The notes below the pieces were generated by a model. The model was not told where the DNA came from. It was given only the letters and a program-made list of their open reading frames with translations, and made no database searches. The position numbers were made by a program, and so were the translations under genes. Source: Glandiceps talaboti (taxonomy: Eukaryota > Hemichordata > Enteropneusta > Spengelidae). From it: 64,000 nucleotides of DNA. The stretch lies in assembly GCF_964340395.1 (NCBI RefSeq), contig NC_135551.1, positions 18,240,503 through 18,304,502 on the forward strand, read 5' to 3'. The first letter of the stretch is position 1; every line of letters starts with the position of its first letter. Of the stretch, positions 5,563-11,500 are shown in pieces.

Positions 5563-8500
5563 ATGGCAAAAGTGATTTCACCTCTGAGGGTTTTGTGCAG
5601 TGGAGCTCGTTTGCTGTCATCCAAGACTGGTCTTCAGAAACATGTGGGATGTTTGTACTACCACGGTGACTTGAGCGGACAGTAAGTGAGATGATGAAAT
5701 TTCATTCATTTGGGGTGAAATGAGGTCACCCCATACAGAACAACCTAGTGCCATACTGTCTTACACTGGGTAACCCTAGAACTTAATGCTGAATTCGAAG
5801 AGTTTTAAGGTTGTTTGATCTGAAGGTCGATCAGAAAGTGACCTCGTTTCTTGTGCATCTTGTTTGAAAAGACGTCTATTTACAGTGGACATGATATCAG
5901 TCGAATTTCAGATATGTAGTTCTTATCAATGTTTGACAGTGAAGGTCTAATGATAGTTAAAATCTCAATAAAATATAACATATGGTATATTAAATTCTTT
6001 TTTTTGTGTGTGTTTTATTTATTTTTTATTTTTTTTAGACAGTTTTCATAGTGTATTGCAATGAAATGACGTTAGGAATTTTAGATATTACTGACAAATT
6101 TGAAAGGTTTTTGTATGCAACATTTGTAGCACAATCTCTCTCTCTCTCTCTCTCTCTCTCTCTCTCTCTCTCTCTCTCTCTCTCTCTCTCTCTCTCTCTC
6201 TCTCTCTCTCTCTCTCTCTCTCTCTCTCTCTCTCTGTTGGTTTTTGTGATTTTCAAAAAAAAAATCATTTTTCTTTTGAATATTCTAACTTTTGTTGAAA
6301 ATTTCTGATAATTTTTAGGAGCATACCTGATATGCCATCTATGGTTGGAAGAAACTTTTTAACATTAAAAGATTTCACTGCTAATGAAGTACAGCATCTA
6401 CTATGGGTAGCAGCTGATTTAAAACAGAGAATTAAAGAAGAAAAAGAAATCTACCAACCTCTTCTAGGAAAATCTATAGCAATGATATTTCAGAAAAGAA
6501 GTACTAGAACAAGGCTATCAACTGAAACAGGTAGGGTTAGTTGGTAATATGTACAGAGCAAAAAATATATTGGCAGCTATTCACTGGAACATTATTTTTT
6601 GTTAGTTTAACATTTTGTTGCATGACTTTGGAGATTGTACATTGCATTACAATGAGTTTTCTACAGACAAAACATAATTTTCTAAGATATATGATATTAT
6701 ATCATATGTCATATTAAATTACATTATATTATATGTTATATATATATATATATATATATATATATATATATATATATTATATTATATTATATTATATTAT
6801 ATTATATTATATTTCAAAAAAGAATGCATTATATTCATCAAATTACTTCACACCACACCACACCACACCACGTCACATTGCATCACATCATATCACACAC
6901 CAAACCACACCACACCACCATATATTATCGTACTGTACTGTACTGTACTGTATTGTATTGTATTGTATTGTATATCGTATCATAATGTCATCATATATCA
7001 ATTTATCATATCATATCATATCATATCATATCATATATCATATTACATTAAAGTATGTTACATTATATTTCAGGTATACATACACTAGGAGGCCATGGTT
7101 GTTTCCTATCCACTGATGATATACATCTTGGTACCAATGAAAGCATTGGAGATTCAGCAAGGTATTGTCATGACAACTGTGATTTCTTAGTACCAATGAA
7201 AGCATTGGAGATTCAGCAAGGTATTGTCATGACAACTTTGATTTCTTAGTACCAATGAAAGCATTGGAGATTCAGCAAGGTATTGTCATGGCAACTTTGA
7301 TTTCTTAGTACCAATGAAAGCATTGGAGATTCAGCAAGGTATTGTCATGACAACTTTGATTTCTTAGTACCAATGAAAGCATTGGAGATTCAGCAAGGTA
7401 TTGTCATGACAACTTTGATTTCTTAGTACCAATGAAAGCATTGGAGATTCAGCAAGGTATTGTCATGACAACTTTGATTTCTTAGTACCAATGAAAGCAT
7501 TGGAGATTCAGCAAGGTATTGTCATGGCAACTTTGATTTCATAGTACCAATGAAAGCATTGGAAATTCAGCAAGGCATTGTCATGACAACTTGATTTCTT
7601 AGTACCAATGAAAGCACTGGAGATTCAGCAAGGTATTGTCATGGCAACTGTGATTTCATAGTACCAATGAAAGCATTGGAAATTCAGCAAGGCATTGTCA
7701 TGACAACTTGATTTCTTAGTACCAATGAAAGCACTGGAGATTCAGCAAGGTGTTGTCATGACAACTTTGATTTCTTAGTACCAATGAAAGCATTGGAGAT
7801 TCAGCAAAGTATTGTCATGACAACTTTGATTTCTTATTACCAATGAAAGCATTGGAGATTCAGCAAGGTATTGTCATGACAACTTTGATTTCTTAGTACC
7901 AATGAAAGCATTGGAGATTCAGCAAGGTATTGTCATGACAACTTTGATTTCTTAGTACCAATGAAAGCATTGGAGATTCAGCAAGGTATTGTCATGACAA
8001 CTTTGATTTCTTATTACCAATGAAAGCATTGGAGATTCAGCAAGGTATTGTCATGACAACTTTGATTTCTTAGTACCAATGAAAGCATTGGAGATTCAGC
8101 AAGGTGTTGTCATGACAACTTTGATTTCTTAGTACCAATGAAAGCATTGGAGATTCAGCAAGGTATTGTCATGACAACTTTGATTTCTTAGTACCAATGA
8201 AAGCATTGGAGATTCAGCAAGGTATTGTCATGACAACTTTGATTTCATAGTACCAATGAAAGCATTGGAGATTCAGCAAGGTATTGTCATGACAACTTTG
8301 ATTTCTTAGTACCAATGAAAGCACTGGAGATTCAGCAAGGTATTGTCATGACAACTTTGATTTCATAGTACCAATGAAAGCATTGGAGATTCAGCAAGGT
8401 ATTGTCATGACAACTTTGATTTCTTAGTACCAATGAAAGCATTGGAGATTCAGCAAGGTATTGTCATGACAACTTTGATTTCTTAGTACCAATAAAAGCA

Positions 8501-11500
8501 TTGGAGATTCAGCAAGGTATTGTCATGGCAACTTTCTTCTATTATTTTTGCTTTCTGACCTAGATCCAGCAACATAATTTGACACCTATATAGCCATTTG
8601 CAACAAAAAGAAAAGCTTTCTTTTTGTGCCAAGCAAGTTACGTGGCTACTTTCACCATTAAAATTTCACATACTTTGCAAGTTATCAGTTTCAAATAGCA
8701 CCAGTACAAGAACTAAAAGTTAATTTTAGCCTGAGTACTAGACTATCACTCATCTCCTAAGTATTTCCTTCTTCTCAGATTTATTTTAGTTAGTTACTTT
8801 TACCAGAAGTTGTACATTTCAGCAACAACTCCACAAACTTGCCTCTATCATGTAAGACAAATGAAAGAAAACACATACCAAGTTATACTAAATCAGTTTA
8901 TTGGATACAGAGAGGAATCCCATTGACTTGAGAAAGTCTACATTGCCTTTTCATTGGTATTTGTATAATTACGATTGATAAAAAGTCAACTTGTCTATGT
9001 TAAAACCTTGACCTTATACAGGAGGTCTTCAAGTGGACCTCACATGGGAGGTACTATTTGGTAAATGCATACTGTTGATTGATTTCAGAGTACTGCATAT
9101 GTCCAAGATAATCAATTCTACTGTGGTCGTTTGTGTTCTGCCTTTTTTTCAAATGTATCATTTTTACCATAATTTTATTTAGCATTTCTTACCATCCAGA
9201 ACATGTATTTCCAATGATGCAATGAAAAGTAATATGATGTGGAGCCATAGAAACGCCTGTAGTTTTACAACCATTTAAGAGTACTGTTACCTGTTTACAT
9301 TGTGATGTCTAGGGATCTTGCTTAAAATGTCAAAATTTATGAATTCTAGTACTGATGCTCTTCCCATATGAAACATACCAATATGATTTTCTTGATCAAT
9401 TTCAGAGTACTCTCCAAGTTTACTGACTTGATATTAGCCAGGGTATATGGCCAGTCTGATTTAGATACACTAGCTGAGTTTGCCTCTGTACCTATAGTCA
9501 GTGGCTTATCTGACCAATACCATCCATTACAAATTTTGGCTGATTTTCAGACTCTACAGGTAAAGTACAAGTATTACAACCAAAATCATGAAACCTGAAA
9601 CAAAACGTCTGGCACGAAAAAATCTTGACCAACATTGCTTCTGCAATCATCTGGCTTGACATATACTTCTACTTCTACTTCTACTACTTCTATACTGTGT
9701 AAACATCCGAAAGGATTATCATCACACAGGCATAACGCTGGCGGCGTCCTTTAGATCTCACCCCGTGTTCCAGTGAGCACGATCTATGAGATCGGTGATA
9801 TCAATGCTGGAGAGGGCAGATTTGAAACTGCTTGTTGAATGGATAATGGTAAGAGATTCCATTCTGGAATTGTCCTAGGGATAAGTGAATATTTGTAACA
9901 GTTTTTCTTAGCGATGATCGACATGAAAGAAGAACCAGGTACACTTCCCCTTTTACTATACTTTCTTTGCACCAGTATTCAGCAACAATTATCAGTAAAA
10001 TGTACAAGGGCAAAATTTAAAGGTAAATCAAAGTTGGCGTGTTCATTCTAATATATTCTGATATTTGAGAGACAGTCAGTATTCTAAAATTGTACTTCAA
10101 TTCTTGTCATGCCAGATGGTAGCAATATAAACGTGGAAATATCATGAAATTTTTGTCGAGCCAGGCAGTAAGATGTAGCAACGTCTCTGACATATTTGTC
10201 TGGCTAGCCGATATTTGTAGTAATGTTGGTAAGATTTTTGTTTAGCTAGATGACATTTTGTTTCAGTTTTTTTTTTAAATCCTTACCAGAACTGAGTCTT
10301 AATAATGACATTTATTTAATGTTGGGAAATATATGTCTTGGAACATAGAAGATTTATTATTTTTGGGAAAGGAAATATAGGTTTGACCAACATACATTGA
10401 CTTTGCATTTACTGTTCTTACACTGTATACACATCTCAAAAAAATAATATTTCAACTTTCATACAGAGTAGTGTACATACTCAAACTGTGGGTAAAGTAT
10501 TAGTTGAGTTTTATAGCAAAATTACTGTCTATTCAAAATTAGAAAAGAGATGTATGAACTCTCACTACATCATCCACAAGTGAAAGTTTCAGATGTTTTC
10601 AGTCAGCAGAAATGAAATAAATAGATGCATAATTAAAAATTGAACAGTAAACAAGATTAATGTAAAATATTGATAGTCACAGTCGCAAATTTTTGACAGT
10701 AATCTTATATTTTCTCAGAATATTGTCAAAGTTCAGATCCTAAATCACAAAAGATTGATAAAATATTTGTGGTTGATGAACTTGCATTTAAAGAAATTAC
10801 AGATGATACAAAAATTGTATTTAATTTTTGAGGTTTTGTTTTTTATATCAGGAGCATTTTCAGAGTCTGAATGGCCGAACCATTGCTTGGGTTGGTGATG
10901 GTAACAACGTATTACACTCAATATTGATGGGAGCACCAAAACTAGGGATGCATGTAAAAGTAGCAACTCCTAAGGTAAATGATTATAACCACTGTTCTCT
11001 TCCATACATAGTTCAACTGTTCTGTTCTATACATAGTTCATGAATGAATCTAAAAGTTTAATTTTCACAGATGTTTTGTAAATGCTATGATTTTTACACC
11101 CAAATTCATATTTTTATGGATTAATTAACATCATTTCTCTGTATCCAGTCTAAAATTTATTAGTATAGTGTCAACAAATTATTGAAAAATTGAAATTTTG
11201 ACAGGTTTGTACAGAAGACATTAAAGGACTAAAGCATCTAGTGTGTTGTTGTTCAGTATTTTGTTACCGTACTAGTTTTAACATGTATGTATACTGACAC
11301 ACCATTCATAATTCATATGTTAATATATTCAAGGTAGAATATTTTCAGCATGTCATGAAAGGCATATAAAACCCATACGACATTGATAGTCTGTAAGGTG
11401 CGCCATAATGGGACGCCCTCACTCATTGGTCAACCCCTTTTCGAGCTGTCCATTGAGGGTGCAGTGATGGCATATCTTACAGTGTAACCACATTGATTGA

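Follow-up and report, generated by a model that had tools for sequence, protein, structure and literature searches.

How does a gene come to carry the end of one of its exons, together with the splice donor, some two dozen times over, and does it use the extra copies? The question is raised by the OTC gene in the DNA analysed here, a stretch of 64,000 nucleotides (the window), where a long row of 59-bp repeats begins inside exon 3 and runs on into the intron. The features concerned are collected in Table 1.

Table 1. Features of the OTC locus (positions are those of the window)
Feature	Position	Strand	Detail and basis
OTC gene, 8 exons, intact	5563..12858	+	365 aa; exon model and translation
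OTC coding exons	5563-5681, 6319-6530, 7074-7161, 9406-9559, 10852-10974, 11539-11742, 12362-12499, 12799-12858	+	exon model
OTC exon 3	7074..7161	+	ends in phase 2, within the codon aligned to human R129
OTC exon 4, partner of the genuine junction	9406..9559	+	exon model, structure match
Genuine exon 3 donor, AAG|GTATTG	7162..7163	+	U1 duplex energy -5.7 kcal/mol
59-bp minisatellite over the exon 3/intron 3 donor	7126..8535	+	TRF, 23.9 copies, 96% matches
23 intronic copies of the 30-nt exon end	7191..8516	+	first 7191-7220, last 8487-8516
Exon 6 donor region and 50-bp minisatellite	11742..12125	+	TRF 11767-12125, 7.3 copies

When the end of exon 3 at 7161 is joined to 9406, the protein is gapless against the best solved OTC chain: the top PDB match is 1c9y, whose sequence is the same as that of 1oth (E=1e-135; no gaps, query residues 48-365). 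The Pfam domains OTCace_N and OTCace are matched in two exon open reading frames, and the introns of the exon model span 299-2244 nt. Exons 3 and 4 meet within the codon that aligns to human R129, residues being numbered as chain position plus 33; under this numbering STRTR comes at 90 and DIH at 115-117, which we take to be their places in human OTC. Mammalian OTC exon 4 likewise ends in codon 129, at c.386 (PMC4390381), and the position of the exon 3 intron thus looks ancient. The start of an RCC1-repeat gene lies head to head with OTC (1822-5163, minus strand), its Pfam RCC1 matches falling under the curated cut-off. This gene is presumably RPGR-like and, as RPGR and OTC lie next to each other on the human X, the linkage may be an ancient one.

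What is repeated? The initial annotation saw a tandem 59-bp unit that takes in the final 30 nt of OTC exon 3 and the donor, and both TRF and a search for the 30-nt core agree. By the core search there are 24 copies, of which 7132-7161 is exonic and the other 23 lie in the intron, with a core-to-core step of 59 bp save for two steps of 58. The accompanying count, about 19 of 23 intronic copies with AG before the core and GT after it, is also right (19/23). The four that fail are copies 7 and 9, with GC, and copies 12 and 15, with AT for AG; copy 11 passes yet reads AAA|GT. At the left edge the exon reads TTGG and the copies TTAG. At the right edge AG|GT is present in 20 of the 23, and AGGT stands at 21 places in the array when the true junction is included. 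The unit holds five AGs; its length does not divide by three, and retained units hit a stop. Beyond the array, a 19-base piece of the core has no exact match on either strand of the window, and nothing in the window matched Rfam at gathering thresholds. The array itself is far beyond chance. The 19 AG/GT copies are not 19 independent events, as all share one founder; the left-hand AG probably derives from that founder unit and shows no sign of having evolved as an acceptor.

How did the array originate? Arrays of similar anatomy are known from amphioxus as 'mirages', the founding paper on which is reportedly that of Canestro et al. of 2002. The OTC unit spans an exon-intron boundary, is of minisatellite size at 59 bp and repeats the AG/GT signals. 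Very probably, the array is a minisatellite of this mirage kind, formed by tandem duplication across the boundary, with copies that are spliced out along with the intron. We infer that a segment with the exon 3 end and roughly the first 29 nt of intron 3 would have been duplicated to give a founder, which slippage or unequal exchange would then have expanded to 24 copies. The 5'-most donor (7161|7162) would have stayed at the real exon end, so that all extra copies came to lie in the intron, and one splice from 7161 to 9406 would remove every copy with intron 3. The array may be tolerated because the 5'-most donor still ends the real exon and the additional copies are lost in a single splice. 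The mirage origin is suggested by an array that spans the junction, by the gapless 7161-9406 protein, by copies that differ in blocks, by variable core columns that all alter the residue and by a second array at the exon 6 donor. Counted against it are a core about half as variable as the spacer, the direction expected from constraint (p=0.12), the copy-free junctions of a DCAF6-like gene in the same window, the amphioxus hosts of the published mirages consulted, and base composition: amphioxus GC is about 41%, above that of this window (35%).

The amphioxus mirages of Adh3, TnC, BflGb6/BflGb9 and PGBD5 are likewise minisatellite-like tandem duplications over exon-intron boundaries, with AG/GT in many units (PMC3087553, PMC3902484), and are described as unstable in length and somatically (PMC3087553). 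Globin RT-PCR and Adh3 data suggest that they splice regularly (PMC3087553); the report that added the PGBD5 mirage cites Adh and TnC as being without aberrant mRNAs (PMC3902484). The OTC unit lies within the 10-72 bp range of Adh3 mirage units, whereas the two BflGb6 haplotypes have 6 and 3 units of 150-160 bp against the 24 copies in OTC, for which the window gives a single haplotype. The gene is a different one, and the likeness is one of anatomy. Human segmental-duplication genes likewise carry minisatellites at exon-intron boundaries, able to activate cryptic splice sites; those cases, unlike that of OTC, are backed by transcripts (PMC2812944). In the system of PMC4974935 a duplication also crosses an exon-intron boundary, but a new intron arose there, whereas in OTC an old intron would merely have grown. 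Literature searches for mirages listed PMC3087553 and PMC3902484 as relevant, and broader ones listed no mirage in another phylum (the pairing of OTC with mirage or minisatellite lay outside them). In PMC7710358 the word mirage belongs to a reference title on enhancers, and PMC7464555 deals with other subjects. Earthworm metallothionein genes have first-intron minisatellites, and the available text makes no mention of splice-junction copies (PMC12783039). By its anatomy, the OTC array would be a large new case of a known kind.

The differences among the copies bear on how the array grew. Copies vary in blocks: 7 and 8 recur as 9 and 10 but for one spacer base, and variants are held in common by copies 12 and 15 (TTAT), 19 and 21 (CATAG), and 11 and 17. 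These block-wise differences point to local duplication that homogenises the copies. Could the expansion be false, an artefact of assembly? The copies are near-identical, and the genome draft of one published mirage seemed misassembled (PMC3087553). The array is, however, just 1.4 kb long and its single-base and 1-bp-deletion variants stand in a patterned order, which makes an artefact most improbable.

Do the copies encode anything? As the initial annotation stated and translation bears out, a 30-nt copy is an in-frame cassette of ten codons following the phase 2 end of exon 3. The ten residues, followed by R, are identical in 16 of the 23 intronic copies; the other seven fall into four variants (copies 7 and 9; copies 8, 10 and 20; copy 11; copy 23). 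That the cassette looks symmetric and free of stops largely follows from the array itself: there was one founder, and a copy of exon DNA, read in the phase of the original, stays open whenever its length divides by three. About one in three AG spacings would come out symmetric. The core has four variable columns, and every one of them alters the residue, an outcome with a chance probability of 0.37 for random single changes over the nine full codons and of 0.20 for transitions. This pattern fits neutrality; it is no proof, and weak evidence by itself. Coding use of the copies, considered as the lead reading, was dropped on the four residue-changing columns, an argument weak alone. There are 7 differences over 690 core positions and 13 over 609 spacer positions (the latter count omits the two 28-nt spacers), a roughly twofold contrast that is not significant.

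The initial annotation went further and proposed OTC isoforms with extra copies of this loop. Its own caveat, that adjacent spacers are too short for introns, stands: they measure 29 nt in 21 cases and 28 nt in two. Micro-exon genes of the schistosome type have symmetric micro-exons with spliceable introns between them, and the OTC spacers do not qualify as such. Inclusion would have to be of non-adjacent copies, for which the next possible introns are 87 and 88 nt long, adding at least 10 residues after A128 with introns of at least 87 nt. The AG and GT on 19 copies would suit such a ladder of micro-exons, as would the pyrimidine content of the copy acceptors (0.53-0.67), which resembles that of the seven real OTC acceptors (0.53-0.80), the slightly less variable core, and room for up to 10 cassettes with introns of at least 60 nt; human UBC tandem AGGT sites do splice to variable copy number (PMC10809524). 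Against this, the variable core columns all change the protein, internal introns of about 88 nt would contrast with the gene's own 299-2244 nt, and published mirages are apparently spliced regularly (PMC3087553, PMC3902484).

A cassette would enter the codon of human R129, the site of spf/ash, 11 residues beyond the counterpart of H117, itself altered in spf mice (PMC4390381). In spf/ash mice a 16-residue insert at this codon leaves OTC inactive and rapidly degraded (PMC4390381). The two inserts share the codon and differ in length (16 versus 10 residues) and sequence, and the comparison is an analogy only; by that analogy, isoforms with a cassette would probably be of little use as enzymes. 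Extra-loop isoforms are therefore unsupported, and inclusion of the copies as micro-exons appears highly improbable.

If the copies are not exons, do their donors matter? Ranked by U1 duplex energy, the genuine exon 3 donor comes out weakest among the seven of OTC. In a comparison of 14 donors it is the third weakest, both weaker ones belonging to the DCAF6-like gene (one of these, DC40499, was scored one base off register). Positions -3 to +8 of the true donor are identical in 18 of the 23 intronic copies. Splicing from copy donors 1-4, those examined of the 23, runs into a stop no more than about 30 residues past the junction, and an exon 3 lengthened to a copy donor was rejected as a candidate product on the early stop found for each of these four. 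Copy donors might then rival the weak true one and yield frame-shifted transcripts subject to nonsense-mediated decay, with OTC mRNA falling as copy number rises. The donor identity and the early stops agree with such a load, as does the matching mammalian OTC exon, whose donor is weak and which turns to cryptic sites when that donor is mutated (PMC4390381). The apparently regular splicing of amphioxus mirages (PMC3087553, PMC3902484) speaks against it, and a load of this kind is rather unlikely; it would be compatible with the mirage origin. The field of decoy donors in the initial annotation is structurally true. Given the weak donor, it would be worthwhile to test whether the copies compete or cooperate, though its weakness is evidence of neither.

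Might intron 3 instead be removed silently, by steps between AG|GT sites whose lengths are multiples of about 59 nt, with the mRNA unchanged? The 20 copies that end in a dual AG|GT site, and the 21 AGGT places in all, would permit it. Intronic AGGT is described as usable both ways, and introns spliced there as enriched in tandem-repeat genes (PMC10809524). The human UBC array shares with that of OTC its tandem units and an AGGT at the edge, but UBC units are coding, in frame and 228 nt long, whereas the OTC unit of 59 bp breaks the frame and brings in stops (PMC10809524). The UBC-type AGGT edges are thus found in 20 of 23 intronic copies, and the frame-keeping unit length is not. The stretch before AG|GT, GGAGATTCAGCAAG, is purine-rich and hence a poor acceptor, and recursive splicing through the array seems scarcely plausible. 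More broadly, the array might be functional through some two dozen U1-binding donor copies that together act downstream as a splicing enhancer and make up for the weak donor, through an AG|GT recursive ladder or through length-tuned isoforms, and mirages might be wider in invertebrates if the host is not a lancelet; this is very unlikely as a whole.

The mirage origin draws further support from the other introns of OTC. The intron 6 array begins 24 nt past the exon 6 donor, and the last exon base plus the first 23 intron bases (11742-11765) match its 50-bp unit at 20 of 24 places, a match equalled by 0 of 2975 random window stretches and by 2 of 300 donor-region shuffles (one of 14 tests). Judged by this match, it is a second donor-derived array, more diverged than that of intron 3. 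It barely spans the boundary, as one exonic base alone is in the match. Intron 5 has a 25-bp array of 2 copies (10991-11040) that begins 16 nt after the exon 5 donor, and intron 7 a 25-bp array of 3 copies (12521-12596) that begins 21 nt after the exon 7 donor. The four OTC intron minisatellites counted, each with a period of at least 20 bp, have their starts within -36 to +24 of a donor, for a combined p of 0.0002 (post hoc) that becomes 0.013 when intron 3 is dropped; this count omits an AT-rich row in intron 2 with period 22, also read as 2 and 10.

Among the 7 donors and 7 acceptors of OTC tested for nearby copies, donors 3 and 6 stand out. Acceptor 2 also does, by an AT-rich match (2/300 shuffles as good), and so does acceptor 3, by one upstream look-alike (0/300 shuffles). 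The exon 4 acceptor look-alike, TTGATTGATTTCAGAGTACT, is at 9075-9094, about 320 nt upstream of the real acceptor, and scores 30, where the best of 300 shuffles reached 29 (one of 14 tests). Elsewhere in the window, a neighbouring gene that we take from its protein to be DCAF6-like, with weak Pfam WD40 matches only, has junction copies at 0 of 14 sites (7 donors and 7 acceptors, chosen by eye, donor D40500 being taken one base off); junction copies are thus not general in the window. Two minisatellites of this gene begin 237 and 92 nt into an intron. Minisatellites are also present at 37488-38132 (34 bp x 19) and 46922-47224 (38 bp x 8, core GGGCGCCCTCAC, similar words being seen elsewhere by eye). 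The window further holds an intronless histone gene at 16929-17303 (Pfam Histone), presumably H2B, and an exon of a Dopey (DOP1) gene at 60415-60621 (Pfam Dopey_N, E=1e-10).

What does the locus offer? The OTC array is a natural test of how one donor is chosen among about twenty identical ones, where the enzyme needs the first. Its junction is the one at which a mutation leads to spf/ash deficiency in mice and in humans, and the donor there is weak too (PMC4390381). Four donor-proximal arrays in one gene would open the origin of mirages to test, should the pattern hold past this post hoc tally.
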